Source of the DNA: Archangium primigenium
Lineage (GTDB): Bacteria; Myxococcota; Myxococcia; Myxococcales; Myxococcaceae
Assembly: GCF_016904885.1 (NCBI RefSeq)
Contig: NZ_JADWYI010000001.1
Coordinates: forward strand, 8,303,224 to 8,367,223
DNA: 64,000 nucleotides
Direction of reading: 5' to 3'
Shown: positions 9,257-20,677 of the stretch, in pieces
Numbering within the stretch: the stretch's first letter is position 1
How the letters are laid out: each line of letters opens with the position of its first letter
Translations under genes and position numbers: made by a program
Notes under the pieces: generated by a model
The model's input: the letters and a program-made list of their open reading frames with translations, nothing else
Database searches by the model: none
Told to the model about the DNA's origin: nothing

Positions 9257-10654
9257 TCACTGCCTGGGTGGGGTATGGCGAACGTCGATGCTCCTCCAGT
9301 CGTACCGCTGGAAGAGCCGACGAAGAAAATCGGCGACCTTGGCATCCGCCACATGCCAGATCACGGGAATCCCAGACTGAATGGACACGTCTCGCTGCCG
9401 CTTCGCCTGTTCCATCATCTGGTCGAACTTCCCCGAGTTCCTGTACCAGTACTTGGGCGTCCCGTCCGCGTTGAAGAAAGCGCAGTAGCCCGGGCCCTTG
9501 GCCTCGAGCAACACCGTGCCCGTGAAGCCATCGAATTCCACGTCTTCCACCATGTACACCCACCACGCCGGGCGCCCCGTCACCTGCGCCTGAAACGCCA
9601 GCGCCTCCTCGGAGGTCGTGGTGGGCGTCTTGTACGTCCAGTGGCCCGGTCCCGGGCGGCCCGTCTTCCCGGAGGGAGCTCGCGCCATGTGGAGCACCGT
9701 GAGCGCCCCCGGGCGCGCCAAGGCGGCGGACCCCGACCCCACGCGAACCGCGGCCAACGTCAACTCGCCCCGCGCGGAGAGCGACAACGCGGGCAGTTCC
9801 GCGCCCAGCCCGCCCAGCCGCCCCACGGCCCCCGTACCGGGGCCCAGCAAGCAGAGCACATGCGTGGACAGACGCGCCGCCTCGCGGATCTGCTCCTGCC
9901 GGGATATGGCGCCGTAGCGCGCGAGGTACTCGGGTGACGAGGCGATGAGGTGCGCGACCCCGCTCGGCAGTTGCGCGAGGCCCTCCACGCTCCGGATGGG
10001 ATGTCGCACCGTCTCCGCGAGCGCGACCGCCATCTCCCCCACCGCGTCCTGGGCCCCATCCAGGGCCGCGTTGAGCCAGTCCCGCTCCAGGCCCAGTTCC
10101 GCGACGGGGGGACCCTCCGCGCGCCGCAGGGCCTCCGTCGCCGGGTAGAGGACGCCTCCGTGCGAGACATAGAAGTCGCCCACGACGAGGTGCCCCACCC
10201 GCCATTGGCCATCGACCAGGAGCACCGGGCCCCTGCGCTGGAGCGGATGCCCCCCGAGCGCCGTCACCAGGTAGCCATCCGGACGCACCAGCACCAGACG
10301 CTCGAAGCGCTGCGCCCGCCGCTGGAGCTCGGCGTGGACCACCGGCTCGCCACCCTGGAGCACTTCGCTCAACAGCCACGCGAGCACTCGCCGGGGTGCG
10401 AAGGCACGCGGGGTGAGCGGTGTCCGCGCCAACGCCGCCCACAGCGCGCGCGCCCGCTCCAGGTCCAGCGCCGTGCCCTCGGCGTGCCAGACGTCTGGAG
10501 CCAGCCCGCTGGCCTCCTGGACCTGGAGGAAGCCATTCCCGGGCGACGCGGGAAAACCTCCCGCGCCACCTTCGTGAGCGGCGAGCGTGGCGCAGCCGCT
10601 CGCCCCCAGGCACCACACCGCCAGCCACACCCCGAGCAGTGCGCGGCCTCGCAT
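9257..10654 (-). CDS. Lipoprotein polymorphic toxin with C-terminal Tox-REase-5 nuclease domain (SitA-like)
   Basis: 465 residues from ATG at 10654 (GGAGAGG upstream). An N-terminal lipoprotein signal ends in LGASGC (lipidated C21). Residues about 25-330 form a delivery region rich in Arg/Leu with no obvious catalytic site. The last ~135 residues form a Tox-REase-5 domain of the PD-(D/E)xK fold, with D375 and E384-A-K386 as the likely metal-binding core. The architecture (lipoprotein signal, variable C-terminal nuclease, adjacent immunity gene) matches SitA toxins, which Myxococcus passes between siblings by outer-membrane exchange. The precise Sit subfamily (possibly SitA6) is not certain. 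It lies 20 bases behind the TonB-operon lipoprotein gene, so it may be co-expressed. Confidence 0.85.
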   Translation of the reverse strand: MRGRALLGVWLAVWCLGASGCATLAAHEGGAGGFPASPGNGFLQVQEASGLAPDVWHAEGTALDLERARALWAALARTPLTPRAFAPRRVLAWLLSEVLQGGEPVVHAELQRRAQRFERLVLVRPDGYLVTALGGHPLQRRGPVLLVDGQWRVGHLVVGDFYVSHGGVLYPATEALRRAEGPPVAELGLERDWLNAALDGAQDAVGEMAVALAETVRHPIRSVEGLAQLPSGVAHLIASSPEYLARYGAISRQEQIREAARLSTHVLCLLGPGTGAVGRLGGLGAELPALSLSARGELTLAAVRVGSGSAALARPGALTVLHMARAPSGKTGRPGPGHWTYKTPTTTSEEALAFQAQVTGRPAWWVYMVEDVEFDGFTGTVLLEAKGPGYCAFFNADGTPKYWYRNSGKFDQMMEQAKRQRDVSIQSGIPVIWHVADAKVADFLRRLFQRYDWRSIDVRHTPPRQ

Positions 10655-10674
10655 GGGGTGCGCCTCTCCGTGCA

Positions 10675-11415
10675 CTACGGAACCGACGGAACCTCGCCCG
10701 TCAGCACGCAGATGCGGATCACCGGATCGCACTTCACCGGGAAGCTCGGGTTGATGCCCGAGCCTCGCAGCCGCGTGGGCGGATCCGCGTACGGGTCACA
10801 CTTCGTCTCGTCCGGCATCGGGACCTTCGTCACCGGATCCGGCGTCGAGCAGGAGACCACCGGCCAGATGCCTCGCGCCGTGAACTCGGCGGTGCAGCCA
10901 TCCACCGTGTACTTCAGGTCCGCGATGAACTGCGTGCCGGGGATGTCGGGCGTGTTGTAGATGCGCAGCCCCGACCACGCGTAGGTGATGTCCTGCGCCG
11001 CCTTGCCCCCGGCCGCGTTCAGCACCACCCGCTCGGCGTTGAGCACGGGCACCTCGCAGAAGTTGTCCGGACCCGGCGCCTCCGTCTCCAGGGTGCCCAC
11101 GGCATTGGCCTGGGACAGGGCGGCGTCCACGCGAGCCGCCTCGGTGCGCAGCAGACCGCCCAACCGCCCCGAGCGCAGGCCCACCGTGTCCTTCTGGACG
11201 GGGTCCGCGTTGAGGAACTTCTGCAGGCCCACGGACTCGGAGTCCAACCGCGTGCAGGCGAGGGTCGGGTTCTGTCCCGGCTTGGGCGAGTAGGTGACCG
11301 CGAACGAGCCCGTGGACCCGTCCGACACCGCCCGGGCCACCACGCACTGCGGATCCTGCTGCTGGGCACCGCAGGCGCTCAGGAGCAGCCCCACACCAAT
11401 CAATGAACGCTTCAT
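10675..11415 (-). CDS. Lipoprotein partner of the TonB-dependent receptor
   Basis: 246 residues with a clear lipoprotein signal (GVGLLLSAC, Cys about 15). The mature part is Cys-containing and mixed alpha/beta, with no recognised domain. Paired cysteines late in the protein (SCSTPDP, KCDPYADP, KCDPVIRICV) suggest disulfides outside the cytoplasm. It starts 24 bases after the stop of the TonB receptor gene on the same strand, so the two are an operon. By analogy with receptor/lipoprotein pairs it may be a surface or periplasmic subunit that helps capture the ligand. That role is inferred. Confidence 0.7.
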   Translation of the reverse strand: MKRSLIGVGLLLSACGAQQQDPQCVVARAVSDGSTGSFAVTYSPKPGQNPTLACTRLDSESVGLQKFLNADPVQKDTVGLRSGRLGGLLRTEAARVDAALSQANAVGTLETEAPGPDNFCEVPVLNAERVVLNAAGGKAAQDITYAWSGLRIYNTPDIPGTQFIADLKYTVDGCTAEFTARGIWPVVSCSTPDPVTKVPMPDETKCDPYADPPTRLRGSGINPSFPVKCDPVIRICVLTGEVPSVP

Positions 11416-14740: not shown

Positions 14741-16033
14741 TCAGCGCGCGTAGCGGATGACCCGCTCCACCCGGCCCCGCTCGGGCGCCCCGGCCAGGGG
14801 CCGCAGCACCAGCAGCTCCGCGGGCTGCTCCAGCCGCAGCGTCCGGGCCTCGCGTGGCGGCAGGGGTACCACCTGGCCCTCCCCCACGTCGCCGGGCGGC
14901 AGCGGCACCACCCAGCACCCCGTGACGTCGAGCGTCTCCTGGGCCCCGAAGACGTGCAGGTCGCCCAATTCCTCGACGCGCCCCGTCACCACGACCCGTG
15001 CCTCGCTCCCCTCCCCGCGCACCGCCCGGAGCCCCTCCACCCCCACGTCCGCGACGAAGGCCTCTCCCGCCTCGCCGAACACCTGGCCGCCCCGGAGCAG
15101 CAGGTGCAGGTAGCCCTGCCCCCAGTTGAGGGGAATGGACGTGTAGCGCCCGAGGTCCGCCCGCTCCACGTGCCCCCCGGCCAGCGCCTCCAGCGCGGAC
15201 ACCAGGGCCACGAAGTTCATCTGCACCAGGGGCTGCTCCGGCTCGGCGGACGGCCACGGCCCGGACTCGATGAGCACCGTGGGCGTGCCCCAGCGGCCCA
15301 GGTTGTCCCCGAAGGCCCGGGGCTCGAAGCCGTCGTCGTAGCGGCCGATCCGCCCCGGGATGAGGGGCTCCAGGGCATCGCGGATGACGGCGCAGACCTT
15401 CTTGGCGAGCAGTCGCCCCGGGTTGTCGTTGCGCGCGGCGTCAAAGGGCGGCGCGAGCAGGGAGATGGACGCGGGCTGGCGGGTCTCCCCCACCGCCGTG
15501 CGCCAGTTCTGGTTGTGCAGGTTGAAGCCCAGCACGGGCTCGAGCCGGTCGCGCAGGGCCTTGAGCGTGCGGCCCTCGGGCGTCTGGAGCACCAGGGCAT
15601 CCCGGTTGATGTCGAGGTTCTGCGCGTTGCGTCGTTGGAAGCGCTCGGCGCCGTCCGGGTTGAGCAGGGGCAGCGCGTGCAGGGTGAACTCCGAGAGCAG
15701 CTTCGCCACCCGGGGCGCGTCTCGGTGCTGGCGCACGTACTCGCACAGGACCAGCAGGGCCGTGGTGGCGGTGGGCTCGTCCCCGTGCATCTGAGACCAG
15801 AGCAGGACCGGACGCGGACCGTGGCCGAAGCGCACGAGCCGCAGCGGACGGCCCTCCACCGAGCGCCCCACCTCGTCGACCTGGAACAGGTCCGGGGCGA
15901 GCGTCCGCAGCCGCGCCAGGCAGGCGCCCACGTGGGGCTCGCGCACGAGCGGCGGCGGGGGCAGGCCCTCCAGGTGCAACCCCAGACACAGGTCGGCGAG
16001 GTCACGAGGCGCGGTGAGGACGGACACGGGCAT
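14741..16033 (-). CDS. M14-family zinc carboxypeptidase
   Basis: 430 residues from ATG at 16033 (AAGGAG just upstream). Zinc ligands of the M14 fold are visible: H83 and E86 (QMHGDEPT) and H173 (FNLHNQNW), with E255 (VLIESGPW) as the probable catalytic base. A substrate-binding NxDR-like motif (NLDINRDA) is also present. No signal peptide, so it is likely cytosolic. The C-terminal ~110 residues form an additional beta-rich domain. Such proteins trim C-terminal residues from peptides, including murein peptides. It diverges from the amino-acid symporter gene with only 26 bases between starts, so the two share a promoter region. A link in peptide-to-amino-acid use is inferred. Confidence 0.85.
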   Translation of the reverse strand: MPVSVLTAPRDLADLCLGLHLEGLPPPPLVREPHVGACLARLRTLAPDLFQVDEVGRSVEGRPLRLVRFGHGPRPVLLWSQMHGDEPTATTALLVLCEYVRQHRDAPRVAKLLSEFTLHALPLLNPDGAERFQRRNAQNLDINRDALVLQTPEGRTLKALRDRLEPVLGFNLHNQNWRTAVGETRQPASISLLAPPFDAARNDNPGRLLAKKVCAVIRDALEPLIPGRIGRYDDGFEPRAFGDNLGRWGTPTVLIESGPWPSAEPEQPLVQMNFVALVSALEALAGGHVERADLGRYTSIPLNWGQGYLHLLLRGGQVFGEAGEAFVADVGVEGLRAVRGEGSEARVVVTGRVEELGDLHVFGAQETLDVTGCWVVPLPPGDVGEGQVVPLPPREARTLRLEQPAELLVLRPLAGAPERGRVERVIRYAR

Positions 16034-16059
16034 CGACTCCTTAGTATGACGGGGACTCC

Positions 16060-17400
16060 ATGTTCCCTGAATTCCTGCGCAACGCCATCGATGTAGCAAG
16101 CAACGCCGTCTGGGGTCCGTGGACGATGGCCCTGCTGCTCGGAACCGGTGTGTTCCTGACGATCCGCCTGCGCTTCGTCCAGGTGGTGCGCCTGCGCGAG
16201 GCGGTGCGCGCCATGGTGCCGGAGCGGGCCACGGGCGCGGGGGCGCTCACGCCCTTCCAGGCCTTCATGACGGCGCTGGGGGCCTCCATCGGCACGGGGA
16301 ACATCGCGGGGGTGGCCACGGCCATCGTGAGCGGCGGGCCCGGGGCGCTGTTCTGGATCTGGGTGTACGGCTTCTTCGCCACGGCCATCAAGTTCTGCGA
16401 GGCCGTGCTGGGCATCCGCTACCGCCGGTGGGACGGCGAGCGGCTGTCGGCTGGCCCCATGCACTACCTCAAGGACGGCCTGGGCGCGCCCCGGCTCGCC
16501 TGGCTCTACGCGTTCATCGCCGGCGTGGCCGCGCTCACCACCACCCCCTTCACCCAGCCCAACTCCATCGCCGTGGTGCTGCACAGCCAGTTCGACCTGC
16601 CGCCGCTCGCCTCGGGCATCGGCATCGCGGTGCTCACCTGGCTCGTGGTCATCGGCGGCGTGAAGAGCGTGGGCCGGGCCGCCGAGCGCCTCGCGCCCCT
16701 CAAGGTCGGGCTGTACCTGGTGGGCGGCCTCGTGGTCGTCATCACCCACCTGGGCCAATTGCCCTCGGTGCTGGCGCTCGTGGTGCGCGAGGCCTTCTCG
16801 ATGGAGGCCGCGGGCGGTGGCGCGCTGGGCGTGGGGATGATGACGGCCATGCGCTACGGCATCGCCCGGGGCATCTACGCCAACGAGGCCGGCTACGGCA
16901 CGGCGGCGGTGGCCTATGGCACGGCGCGCACCGATGCCCCCGTGCGCCAGGGGCTCCAGGCGGTGATGGAGGTGTTCATCGTGTCGTGCGTGACGTCCAC
17001 GCTCAGCGCGCTGGTCATCCTGGTGAGCGGCGTGTGGAAGTCCGGGCTCACGAGCACCGCCGTGGTGGCCCAGGCCTTCAACACCGCCATTCCCACGGTG
17101 GGCGGCTGGGTGGTGGCCTTCTGCGCCTTCCTCTTCGGCTACACGACGCTGATTGGCTGGGCGTACTACGGCGAGCAGTTCCTCGAGTACGCGTTCGGCC
17201 CCCGGCTCACCGTGCCCTACCGCTGGGTGTACTGCGGCCTGGTCGTCTTCGGCGCCACGGGCAAGGTGGAGACCATCTGGGCGTGGGGAGACCTGATGAA
17301 CGGCCTGCAGATCTTCCCCAACCTCGTGGGGCTCATTGGCTTGAGCGGTGTGGCCGCGTCCGTGCTCAAACCGGAGCGGCCCGTGGTCTCACGGCCCTGA
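16060..17400 (+). CDS. AGCS-family alanine/glycine:cation symporter
   Basis: 446 residues, about 11 membrane segments, full family length. The signature ASIGTGNIAGVATAI (residues ~78-92) and the ANEAGYGTAAVAYGTAR motif are diagnostic of the alanine or glycine:Na+ symporter family (AlsT/DagA/CycA-like AGCS). It imports small neutral amino acids using sodium or protons in the inner membrane. It starts 26 bases from the divergent M14 peptidase. The last 95 bases of homology (17285-17379) reappear about 1.5 kb downstream at 18825-18919, and composition falls sharply right after this gene. Its present 3' end (PVVSRP) may therefore have been rewritten by the insertion. Confidence 0.93.
   Translation: MFPEFLRNAIDVASNAVWGPWTMALLLGTGVFLTIRLRFVQVVRLREAVRAMVPERATGAGALTPFQAFMTALGASIGTGNIAGVATAIVSGGPGALFWIWVYGFFATAIKFCEAVLGIRYRRWDGERLSAGPMHYLKDGLGAPRLAWLYAFIAGVAALTTTPFTQPNSIAVVLHSQFDLPPLASGIGIAVLTWLVVIGGVKSVGRAAERLAPLKVGLYLVGGLVVVITHLGQLPSVLALVVREAFSMEAAGGGALGVGMMTAMRYGIARGIYANEAGYGTAAVAYGTARTDAPVRQGLQAVMEVFIVSCVTSTLSALVILVSGVWKSGLTSTAVVAQAFNTAIPTVGGWVVAFCAFLFGYTTLIGWAYYGEQFLEYAFGPRLTVPYRWVYCGLVVFGATGKVETIWAWGDLMNGLQIFPNLVGLIGLSGVAASVLKPERPVVSRP
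17285..17379 (+). repeat. 95-bp direct repeat, upstream copy (symporter 3' end)
   Basis: This stretch inside the symporter gene aligns without gaps to 18825-18919, with nine mismatches by eye (about 90% identity). It begins GGGGAGAC and ends CAAACCGGAGCGG in both copies. The two copies bracket the AT-richer DisA_N gene. After 17379 the two copies diverge completely. Confidence 0.9.
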
Positions 17401-17486
17401 AAAACACGACATCCAAATCGGCCCCAAATCAAATTTCTTAACAACACGACGCAAACGCGAGCCCCCATTTCACCTAAAACAAAACC

Positions 17487-18794
17487 ATGCACAACTTCGA
17501 CGAAAAAGCTCTCGCAGTGGTCAAAGGCAGCAAACTAAATCCGCAAGACATTCAACTCGTTCTATCAAGAATACCCAAAGCGATGCCGCATCTGAAATTT
17601 TCGGACAACTGGACAGTATTCGAAGAGAAGGGTGACTCTTTTGCGCATCGCACAAAAACTGGGGCTCATTGCCACGTCCAGATCAAAGACGCACATATCG
17701 CCATTGAAGTCTTCTCCAGAAAAGAAACCCTCAGCAATGATGATCTCCAAGTACTAAGAGATCTGTGCCAGGAAGCCGCTGGATTGATTCAAGCGTCGAC
17801 TGACAATGGCGTTTCACTTGCAGACTTTGGAGTAAACGCCATGTCCAGCGTAATCGCCAAATATATTTCCGAATCATCAGCGCACCCCGTGTCGTCCGCT
17901 CAAGTCAAAAACTATTTTAAGTTTCTTCGCTCGCTCTCTGGCGAGACATATGAAAACCAAAGGATATCGTACGGGCTCATTTTACTTCCCCAGAAAAAGC
18001 GAGCCGCATCCTCAGTACTAGAGTTCGACAACAAGAGATTCAAAAGACTAACCGATGGATTCTCAACGGCCATTTCGCTCGATGTTAACGGCTCAATCGT
18101 CCAATTGACGTCGCTAACGGCAAAGAAAGAAAACAAAAACTCCAGTTTGGGACGTCCCTGGTGGATCGGTCCGCTTGCCGATACAGCGTCAAGTCAGGGT
18201 GGAATTGGAGTTGCCCTAACAAAGGGCGGTGACATTTTGGTTGTAAAAGACAGGGAACTCTTGATCTCACAGCGAGCAGGAGAGTGGAGGCTTTGGAGGC
18301 ATAGCGCTATAACCTCAGCAGTAAGAGACTCCTGGCTAACCAGAGGCCACCCCGGGAATCTTGATAGAGTGTTGGTTGCTCTGTATCGAGTTGCACTCGA
18401 CTTGGCATTTCGGCGCTCTGGCGGACTTCTCGTCGTTGCCTCAACTTGGAAAAAAGCTGATAAACTCGTTACAGCCAAGGGTGACCTGATTGGAGCTTCG
18501 AGCAGGAGCAACTCCGAGCAGGCACTCGACAACTCTCTCTCCGAAAAATCAATTTTGACCATGGATAGAAGAGTGCTTGCCGACCTAGCCAGTCTAGATG
18601 GAGCGCTCGTCATTCATCGTTCAGGACGGCTTGTGGCATACGGCGCAATGGTTCGAGCCAAATCCAATACCGCTCAACAGGGGGCTCGTTCGAGGGCTGC
18701 AATTGGGGCAAGTGAATACGGCCTCGCAATCAAAGTCAGCTCGGACGGCGGAATCACCGTTTACAGGCAGGGTGTTTGCGTGGTCACGCTTTGA
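17487..18794 (+). CDS. DisA_N-like (diadenylate-cyclase fold) protein on an AT-richer islet
   Basis: 435 residues, with codon usage rich in A/T unlike every neighbour. Residues 1-~180 are a mixed, unrecognised region. The C-terminal ~190 residues follow the DisA_N/DAC layout: ALDLAFRRSGGLLVVAS, then the DGA motif (SLDGALVIHRSGRLVAYGA), then GARSRAAIGASEYGLAIKVS and a closing beta hairpin (GGITVYRQG). In active diadenylate cyclases the second motif is RHR; here the middle His is Ser, so c-di-AMP synthesis is uncertain and a degenerate nucleotide-sensor role is possible. No membrane segment. No clear ribosome site before ATG 17487. The protein is probably a recently acquired signalling or defence gene. 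Confidence 0.7.
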   Translation: MHNFDEKALAVVKGSKLNPQDIQLVLSRIPKAMPHLKFSDNWTVFEEKGDSFAHRTKTGAHCHVQIKDAHIAIEVFSRKETLSNDDLQVLRDLCQEAAGLIQASTDNGVSLADFGVNAMSSVIAKYISESSAHPVSSAQVKNYFKFLRSLSGETYENQRISYGLILLPQKKRAASSVLEFDNKRFKRLTDGFSTAISLDVNGSIVQLTSLTAKKENKNSSLGRPWWIGPLADTASSQGGIGVALTKGGDILVVKDRELLISQRAGEWRLWRHSAITSAVRDSWLTRGHPGNLDRVLVALYRVALDLAFRRSGGLLVVASTWKKADKLVTAKGDLIGASSRSNSEQALDNSLSEKSILTMDRRVLADLASLDGALVIHRSGRLVAYGAMVRAKSNTAQQGARSRAAIGASEYGLAIKVSSDGGITVYRQGVCVVTL

Positions 18795-18824
18795 TGGTGC
18801 AATTTCTTTACACCCTCGCAAGGA

Positions 18825-18958
18825 GGGGAGACATGATGAACGGCCTGCAAATCCTCCCCAACCTCCTGGTGCTCATTGGCCTGAACGCTGTAGCCGCGTC
18901 CGTGCTCAAACCGGAGCGGACGCTGGACACGCCGACCTCGGCGTCTACTGCACTTTGA
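18825..18958 (+). pseudogene. Orphan 3' end of an AGCS symporter gene
   Basis: In frame, this stretch encodes GDMMNGLQILPNLLVLIGLN, then AVAASVLKPER, then a short tail ending at TGA 18956-18958. It corresponds to the last ~45 residues of the symporter at 16060-17400. The rest of the gene is absent; sequence upstream belongs to the DisA_N gene. It is either the original 3' end displaced by insertion of the islet, or a piece carried in by it. The nine differences from the upstream copy show that the two have diverged or came from different strains. Confidence 0.85.
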
Positions 18959-19474
18959 CTATGTACGCCCTGTCTTGATGCCCGACACGCGGATGTAGTG
19001 CTCCGCCCGCTGCGTGGCTCGTGAAGGCACGCGGGCTGGAGCCCGTGGAGATCGCCGTCGTTTTGTCCGGGGCATACACGGTGATCGGGGTAGAGACACC
19101 CGTCGTGGTCGCAGTCGATGGACGAGGCCGCCCAGCTGAATTCGTAGATGTGGTCCGCCGTGGCGAAGAACAAGAACCCGTCCTGGTCCCGGGCGTCTCT
19201 TGGCCCGTGCTGCTCGCGGTAGCCGGTAAGAGCGCTGTGGCGGTCGCGGCCGTATCGTCGTGGTCACCCGGAACCGACAGCACGCACGCCTCGCTCTGGG
19301 ACGACATAGCCGCTCACGCAAGCAACGGCCCTGCTCGTTGTGGCACTAGCGTGGTGGCTTGGCTCGCAGGCACAGACAGTCCGATCATCGGAGACCTCGC
19401 AGCAGCCAGGACCACAGGCGAGGTCTAGCACGGCCTCCGGACGGACTTGTCATTGCGTCTCGAGCAACCTTCCC
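18959..19474 (+). other. 516-bp region without an intact gene, probable gene debris
   Basis: No reading frame here combines a ribosome site, a sensible start and myxobacterial codon pattern. On the minus strand a fragment reading DHIYEFSWAASSIDCDHDGC (about 19150-19090) looks protein-like but is closed by frame changes, suggesting a decayed secreted protein. On the plus strand a 135-codon frame (19021-19428) shows no motif. The region separates the DisA_N islet from the DUF819 operon, consistent with an insertion-prone spot. Confidence 0.45.
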
Positions 19475-20677
19475 TCAATGAAGCAGTCGGTACACCTGCT
19501 CCAGCATCACCGCGCACACGAGGCCGCCATAGGTGCCCAGCACGTAGCCGGCCACCGCGAGCATGACGCCCACCGGAGCGAGCGCGGGATGGAACGCGGC
19601 GGCCACCACGGACGACGACGCCGCGCCGCCCACGTTGGCCTGGGAGCCCACGGCCGCGAAGAAGATGGGGGCACGCAACCACCTGCGCACGCCCAGCACG
19701 ATGCCCGCGTGCACCGCCATCCACACCAGGCCCACGGCCACCATGGCCGGCGCGTCCAGCAGTCGCCGGAAGTCCGCCTTGGCGCCAATGGTCATCACCA
19801 GCACGTAGAGGAACAGCGCCCCCACGCGGCTCGCGCCCGCGCCCTCCAATTCGCGCAGGCGCGTGAAGGACATGAGCCCGCCCACCGTCGTCACCAGGAG
19901 CACCACCCAGGTGAAGCCGGTGATGAACGTGCCCACGTCCGGCAGGTGCTTCGCCACCTCCGTGCACACCACCGTCGTGCCCAGGGAGAGGGCCAGGAGC
20001 CACACCAGGTCCTGCATGCGCGTGGGCCGGGACACCGCGGCGTGGAAGCGCTCCACCTGCTCGCGCACCACATCGATGGCCCGCCGGTCCGCGCCCAGCC
20101 GCTCGTCCATCTGGCGCTCGCGCCCCGCGAACCACAGGAGCACCGCCGTCCACAGGTTCGACACGCCCACGTCCACCACCACCATCATGCTCAGCGTGTC
20201 GTCGCGCGCCCCCACGCTCTGCCCGATGGCCACGAAGTTCGCGCTCCCGCCAATCCACGAGCCACTGAGCGCCGCCAGCCCCTTCCACGCCTGGTCCCCC
20301 AGGTCCGCCGGCACCCAGCGGCCCAGCAGCAGGTAGGCCAGGGGCCCGCCCAGCATGATGCCCACCGTGCCCGCGAGGAACAGCAGCACCGCGCCCCGCC
20401 CCAGCCGGGAGATGGCGCCCAGGTCCATGGCCAGCACCTGGAGCACGAGGCTCGCGGGCAAGAGGTACGCCGACACGAAGCCGTACAGGTCCGAGCGCGT
20501 GGGGATGACGCCCGTGTTGGACAGCAGCGTGGGCACGAAATAGACGAGCACCAGCAGGGGCACGACCTTGAAGACGCGCCCGAGCACGGGGTGGCGCTCG
20601 GCGAGCAGCAGCAGCGCCAGGACGGCCAGCAGCACCACCAGCACCGCCATGGGCGCCTGGATGAGCGGTCCGGTCAT
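19475..20677 (-). CDS. DUF819-family multi-pass membrane protein
   Basis: 400 residues with about 10-11 hydrophobic segments and a soluble loop near residues 205-240. Conserved features of DUF819 (YjcL-like) are visible: an early VVPLLVLVYFVPTLLSNTG segment, GSWIGGSANFVAIGQSVGA, and FFAAVGSQANVGGAASSSVV near the end. The start ATG overlaps the TGA of the dipeptide epimerase gene by 4 bases, so the pair is translationally coupled. Family members are predicted transporters with no proven substrate. Coupling to a dipeptide epimerase suggests movement of peptides or amino acids from murein, which is an inference. Confidence 0.85.
   Translation of the reverse strand: MTGPLIQAPMAVLVVLLAVLALLLLAERHPVLGRVFKVVPLLVLVYFVPTLLSNTGVIPTRSDLYGFVSAYLLPASLVLQVLAMDLGAISRLGRGAVLLFLAGTVGIMLGGPLAYLLLGRWVPADLGDQAWKGLAALSGSWIGGSANFVAIGQSVGARDDTLSMMVVVDVGVSNLWTAVLLWFAGRERQMDERLGADRRAIDVVREQVERFHAAVSRPTRMQDLVWLLALSLGTTVVCTEVAKHLPDVGTFITGFTWVVLLVTTVGGLMSFTRLRELEGAGASRVGALFLYVLVMTIGAKADFRRLLDAPAMVAVGLVWMAVHAGIVLGVRRWLRAPIFFAAVGSQANVGGAASSSVVAAAFHPALAPVGVMLAVAGYVLGTYGGLVCAVMLEQVYRLLH

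Follow-up and report, generated by a model that had tools for sequence, protein, structure and literature searches.

Diadenylate cyclases (DACs) are familiar as homodimers that carry an RHR motif. The canonical enzymes associate face to face, and two ATP molecules are joined at the face between the two DAC domains; in other pseudo-dimeric nucleotide cyclases the halves have specialised. In the M. tuberculosis enzyme DacA, replacement of RHR by AAA led to the loss of ATP binding and activity, according to PMC3328451, although this mutant changes the whole triplet, whereas the protein described here differs at the histidine alone. A connection to defence is provided by DS-2, a CBASS-type system that depends on its DAC: the DefensePredictor paper (PMC13092281) reports a loss of defence when two predicted catalytic residues of this DAC are mutated, and the same text cites Galperin 2023 for an already known association of CBASS with DACs.

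The gene of interest encodes P0001 and lies at positions 17487–18794 (plus strand) of the window, by which we mean the whole 64-kb stretch of DNA analysed. An earlier note on this DNA had called an open reading frame with exactly these limits, and it indeed starts with ATG and encodes 435 amino acids in an uninterrupted frame. The Pfam DAC model (PF02457) matches aa 341–429 with an E-value of 1.9e-7 and a score of 31.1 bits (cut-off 27), which places the match beyond chance, and DAC is the sole Pfam domain above cut-off in P0001. A PADLOC scan of the protein gave no match, and a PDB sequence search returned chance matches only when made with P0001 and none with the 22-row alignment A3 or with the alignment A7.

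P0001 has in common with CdaA and DisA (PF02457) the C-terminal fold, the DGA motif and the arginines of G-x-R-x-R, but it differs from them in carrying serine in place of the RHR histidine and in possessing an extra predicted DAC-like fold before the C-terminal DAC domain. In DisA, the DAC domain is followed by a linker and HhH, whereas the chain of P0001 ends with the DAC domain at aa 435. DS2_3 (NF053872) is likewise a DAC-like protein without RHR that occurs with CBASS, and in Vogesella it adjoins a gene of the P0001 family; there it reads, by eye, SRGSRYNSG at the motif. P0001 reaches only 12.6 bits with NF053872, far under the cut-off of 630, and DACNG and DACNH, which are present in Vogesella DS2_3, have no Pfam match in P0001. 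As the profile comparison with DS2_3 covered 58 columns at a probability of 20%, we dropped the idea that it is close kin and claim no close kinship. Among literature titles and the opening parts of abstracts, no description of two, tandem or duplicated DAC domains or of a DAC pseudo-dimer in CBASS was found, and several of the matches on "two DAC domains" appear, from these parts, to concern CdaA.

Fold and domain architecture of P0001

The full-length model of P0001, which was computed from the 22-row alignment, has a mean pLDDT of 76.4 and a pTM of 0.78, with aa 1–42 and 49–60 as low-confidence parts (pLDDT <50). Its C-terminal domain (aa 286–435, 18342–18791) superimposes in VIA on the CdaA–AMP structure 8c4n_B with Z 14.2 and an rmsd of 2.4 over 127 residues, and Foldseek finds CdaA/DisA with an E-value of 3.9e-6. 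Together with the Pfam match, this makes P0001 a member of the DAC superfamily, and the structure prediction and comparison with DisA that had been recommended for it thus returned a match to the DAC fold. Within this domain, the DGA motif occupies aa 371–373 (18597–18605), the stretch GARSRAA lies at the GTRHR place (aa 399–405, 18681–18701), both as the earlier note had read them, and KVSSDG is found at the canonical S-E/Q-E strand (aa 416–421, 18732–18749). The RHR triplet reads RSR (aa 401–403), so that the exchange of histidine for serine is the sole change and both arginines are retained.

Roughly the first 180 residues had been described as matching nothing recognised, which holds for the sequence libraries; it does not hold for the fold, because the middle domain (aa 108–284, 17808–18338), when folded alone with its own alignment (model m9d367ccc1650, pLDDT 84), has a predicted DAC-like fold. 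Foldseek gives M. smegmatis DisA as its best row (E 8.2e-4), and the best 50 rows are all DAC structures. The top match in VIA is Mtb DisA with Z 8.7, and rows 1–40, from Z 8.7 to 5.9, are DACs, 39 of them by title; the B. cereus protein 2fb5 among these rows we take to be a CdaS-type DAC. The first unrelated row is an FBPase at Z 4.3. In general, Z values of 7–8 may arise by chance, but here the matches are confined to one family. A reading of the middle region as FBPase, which had appeared with Z 4.5 in the full-length model, was dropped once the domain was folded alone, and a BFVD fold search gave no match below E 0.001. The region preceding the middle domain (aa 1–107, 17487–17807) is poorly conserved and mostly modelled with pLDDT below 68.

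In the predicted models, the order of elements is equal in both halves of P0001, namely helix, strand, two strands, helix and three strands. At the presumed GTRHR place, the N-terminal half has a helix that starts with proline and in most members of the family carries a basic residue at its third position. This start is PWRHR in Pseudomonas, PWKHR in Vogesella, PWRHT in A. vitis and PYRF in many Clostridia, with PWWIG in P0001 itself (aa 224–228, 18156–18170). Judged from the order of secondary-structure elements, this P-x-basic helix may correspond to canonical GTRHR. An hhalign comparison of the middle domain with C-terminal DACs gave a score of 14.9, which does not exceed the range of column-permuted controls (95% point 15.9, highest value 17.6, n=60), although the register of this alignment is as expected from the strands; against CdaA the score was 12.75. 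The tandem-DAC claim thus rests on the predicted structures, and as aa 108–284 match only DAC folds well, P0001 is probably a tandem DAC that forms an intramolecular pseudo-dimer.

A dispersed family and its active-site pattern

No close relative of P0001 was found in 193–195 Myxococcota genomes. The sole other two-domain matches in these genomes belong to a divergent paralogue, the L011 type, which is restricted to two genera (4/4 genomes of the window's genus and 5/6 of the second). It is homologous to P0001 over about aa 110–430 (hhalign 99.2%, E 9e-20) at 19–29% identity, and has GAR without the histidine (GARALAA). The copy in the window's own genome is chromosomal (L011 910–2259) and is not recognised by Pfam. 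The same genome also encodes a DacZ-like cyclase (L012) of the DAC superfamily, in which the histidine is kept (GARHAAA), and a DAC of its score range is present in most genomes of the phylum.

Relatives are met elsewhere. Tblastn located them on plasmids of Agrobacterium vitis and Vescimonas and on the scaffold of a gut phage, and a copy on a Paracoccus plasmid ends early beside an IS3 transposase. When genome_contigs (84,980 species) was scanned with a four-row alignment, 23 loci emerged, which belong to Bacillota, Mycoplasmatota, Verrucomicrobiota, Pseudomonadota, Desulfovibrionaceae and Zixibacteria. Viral contigs gave no close relatives with exact peptide patterns and none with the four-row alignment, and one relative (L085) with the 22-row alignment. 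The latter consists of P0001 and 21 relatives, which are 18–24% identical to it over the full length; a near copy (L033, of L032), a 71-aa remnant in Lysinibacillus (L040) and the IS-interrupted L017 were left out, and from the tree we also omitted CdaA and DacZ rows that were short or had frame errors. That Lysinibacillus remnant contains the piece closest to P0001 (56% over 32 residues), and it lies downstream of short ORFs that, by eye, read like a broken tyrosine recombinase. In the tree, P0001 groups with the L011 type (85/75), and this pair in turn joins the family (93/87); the placement of P0001 is weak, since long branches meet there. Members are scattered over phyla and plasmids, and the family is sporadic and mobile. 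Its members do not sit consistently in vertically inherited operons, the L011 type being nearest to such a branch; of the two outcomes that the earlier note would have taken as a refutation, this one and the lack of a match to the DAC fold, neither was observed. Neither Pfam nor NCBIfam holds a model that recognises the family as such, and of five proteins of the group that were scanned with the Pfam DAC model, P0001 alone passes the cut-off, so that surveys built on this model would overlook the family.

In the 22-row alignment, D371, G372, G399, R401, K416, S418, D420 and G421 are identical in all 21 relatives. The position of the RHR histidine, 402, is occupied by T in nine, G in six, A in two and L, R, N and H in one each, and position 403 is A in 18 and K in three, so that the second arginine, which P0001 retains, is absent in all of them. 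The family consensus at the GTRHR place reads GGGR[T/G]AAA, and the members from A. vitis, Vescimonas, the gut phage and IMG/VR fit the active-site pattern too. The earlier note had considered that P0001 might be a foreign second-messenger enzyme or a degenerate sensor domain of the DAC superfamily; given that the histidine is also missing in 20/21 relatives and that the surroundings are strongly conserved, its loss is a trait of the family and not a private change. In other Myxococcota genomes, GTRHR, GARHR or GTRHQ is still present in divergent DACs, indicating that loss of RHR is not the rule among accessory DACs. These include two accessory low-GC DACs with intact GTRHR in the same-genus genome G003 (L116 8777–10051, GC 0.52, and L117 9216–10583, GC 0.51).

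The conservation of the family, and the example of DS2_3, which lacks RHR and nevertheless belongs to a defence that depends on its DAC, lead us to give an even chance to the view that P0001 represents an active or nucleotide-responsive tandem DAC that acts in defence. A tentative alternative, which we hold to be rather improbable but likelier than those discussed below, is that the DAC cleft is a binding site for a nucleotide or cyclic dinucleotide and synthesises none, in which case the protein would gate a partner in the role of receptor or regulator. The absence of the histidine and of the second arginine throughout the relatives, apart from the single histidine mentioned, would agree with this, as would the inactivity of the AAA mutant of DacA, and in Vogesella a second DAC, DS2_3, is encoded next to the gene and might act as the producer. 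The retention of DG, G-x-R and S-x-D-G in 21/21 relatives across phyla, however, seems to go beyond what a fold used for binding alone would require, and DS-2 defence is lost when its DAC, which by reading has no RHR either, is mutated at predicted catalytic residues. With these motifs kept and the histidine position free to vary, a changed chemistry or ligand fits better than a simple decay of the family.

Insertion site and genomic neighbourhoods

The P0001 gene is foreign and was horizontally acquired. Its GC content is 0.498 and its GC3 0.50, compared with a GC3 of 0.93–0.96 in four neighbours, and the low-GC minimum of the window falls at this gene; this composition, and the lack of close relatives in 195 Myxococcota genomes, bear out the foreign origin that had been suspected. 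Upstream lies a sodium:alanine symporter gene (16060–17400, plus strand; Pfam PF01235, E 4.2e-106) and downstream a gene for a DUF819 membrane protein (19475–20671, minus strand; PF05684, E 3.2e-89). The 3' end of the symporter gene (17285–17398, plus strand) recurs downstream of the P0001 gene as a direct repeat of 114 nt that is 85% identical (18825–18938, plus strand), and therefore the piece between the copies, about 17399–18824 (plus strand), looks inserted; with these bounds, which are deduced from the repeats, it has a GC content of 0.494 and holds the DAC-like gene alone. The insertion may have occurred by recombination via the 114-nt repeat. No integrase was seen adjoining the gene, and the window contains no tRNA, which argues against a tRNA-type integration. 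An Rfam scan of window positions 16000–20500 gave nothing, and promoters and terminators were no more numerous than in shuffles.

The interval between the symporter and DUF819 genes (window 17400–19475) is an insertion hotspot in relatives. Variable DNA of 2.1–6.4 kb occupies it in 7/7 relatives with both flanks (L074–L080; in L081, L082 and L084 the downstream flank lies beyond the fetched stretch), and none of these seven offered a simple empty site. By eye, part of this cargo resembles the paired toxin/immunity cassettes known from myxobacteria. In G038, the interval appears by reading to hold two similar tandem cassettes. Symporter 3' fragments away from the full gene also occur in the same-genus genomes G001–G003. 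In G002 (L072 4952–6830) and G001 (L073 5067–6048), such fragments are followed by parts of window 18851–19468 without the DAC-like gene, and they sit at a different place in these genomes. The stretch in G002 forms one long ORF on the minus strand that contains repeats, and window 18940–19468 may be a decayed copy of it.

P0001 had also been said to lie in a setting typical of defence genes, which is not what we find. It is an orphan in a neighbourhood of peptidases and transporters, with an M14 peptidase, the symporter, DUF819, an enolase-superfamily enzyme, an M20 peptidase and others around it. PADLOC, run on ten proteins near P0001, found no CBASS gene, and its sole match was a PDC-M17A candidate about 6.8 kb away. 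This lipoprotein-like protein (window 9257–10732, minus strand; PDC-M17A E 5.7e-167) has a C-terminal Tox-REase-5 domain (Pfam E 6.3e-10) and may be a toxin of bacterial competition. One SMODS nucleotidyltransferase (CD-NTase) was found in the genome, 4.6 Mb away from P0001; its gene (L124 7072–7929) has normal composition and is followed by a large ORF. A phospholipase above the CBASS cut-off was not found in this genome.

The defence link of the P0001 family therefore derives from the neighbours of its relatives, not from those of P0001. The plasmid-borne gene of A. vitis has a 2TM CBASS effector on one side and, on the other, a CBASS operon that comprises JAB, ThiF, CD-NTase and phospholipase genes. 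In Vogesella alkaliphila (L025 5496–10621), it directly follows a complete DS-2, with DS2_1, DS2_2 and DS2_3 all above the NCBIfam cut-offs, and is itself followed by a transposase-like gene. The Pseudomonas KNUC1026 gene is oriented divergently to a phospholipase gene that is split into two pieces and to a CD-NTase that is 59% identical to that of Vogesella; a match to DS2_3 was not found in this 20.8-kb locus. Three of the four Pseudomonadota members thus stand beside CBASS genes, the annotation of the 17-kb stretch around the interrupted Paracoccus copy containing no CBASS gene, and a CD-NTase and an effector are encoded beside the family gene in L014, L025 and L035.

Neighbours of the family loci were tabulated, as the earlier note had proposed. 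PADLOC matches at ≤1e-10 could be attributed to the two nearest genes per side at 7/21 genome loci: CBASS (L025, L035), Shango SngB/SngC (L031), an AbiLi-like ATPase (L018), a type III methyltransferase (L027), an LmuB-like ATPase (L034, weak) and a dGTPase-like protein (L022). The other 14 aligned loci had no attributed match within the same range. Matches to AbiQ, Stk2, PDC-M42A and SoFic are not assigned to single loci in this count, and DndA/SspA matches near one locus, which appear to stem from a housekeeping desulfurase, were disregarded. At 1e-10, the distal control of genes lying further out (69 proteins, 27 families) gave fewer raw PADLOC matches than the proximal set (73 proteins, 72 families), with models that overlap heavily. 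By reading, L018 seems to hold a ToxN-like gene, to which the AbiQ/ToxN matches would belong, and a KAP-type NTPase adjoins the IMG/VR copy.

The orphan context of P0001 invites the interpretation that it is stranded cargo without function, which arrived by recombination and is decaying. The variable interval, which holds other cargo in relatives, and the Lysinibacillus remnant beside short integrase-like ORFs would be in line with this. Also, P0001 departs from residues that are invariant in the 21 relatives (W150L, G157N, E366D) and lacks R364, which 20/21 of them keep, so that it may be drifting. The 435-codon frame, however, is intact and free of stops, and the key motifs of the C-terminal DAC domain are retained, which is why we consider this interpretation improbable.

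A possible tandem cyclase in defence signalling

Least probable of all is that P0001 is an ordinary homodimeric DAC that makes c-di-AMP with serine for histidine and uses its middle domain merely as a sensor, since the retained DGA and RHR arginines and the above-cut-off Pfam score are confronted with fold matches of the middle domain that are specific to DACs, with R-S-V of the IMG/VR relative as the sole other R-S DAC in this analysis, and with a genome that already has the DacZ-like cyclase.

For the tandem DAC, the following mechanism can be proposed. A degenerate N-terminal DAC (about aa 108–284) and the C-terminal DAC (aa 286–435) in one chain would form a pseudo-dimer with a shared cleft, which may bind ATP-type nucleotides. 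The poorly conserved N-terminal region could receive a cue, upon which P0001 would make, or bind, a cyclic dinucleotide that tunes a partner effector, for example a CBASS phospholipase. Once the canonical face forms within one chain, the halves would be free to specialise. A further step, which we think is unlikely, would see the family as an asymmetric cyclic-dinucleotide synthase with a divided active site that provides a mixed or non-adenine second signal in CBASS, with P0001 as a divergent orphan. In that case, DGA and GGGR would be contributed by the C-terminal half and an RHR-like element by the N-terminal half (PWRHR or PWKHR, as in Pseudomonas and Vogesella), and the asymmetry of the pseudo-heterodimer would allow such a mixed or non-adenine product.

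The altered active site, and the presence of relatives on plasmids and beside antivirus genes, suggest an unusual defence signalling enzyme or sensor. A family of DACs without RHR that is apparently two-fold and travels with CBASS would extend the range of defence signalling enzymes, and it raises the question of whether there is a second, DAC-made signal in CBASS.
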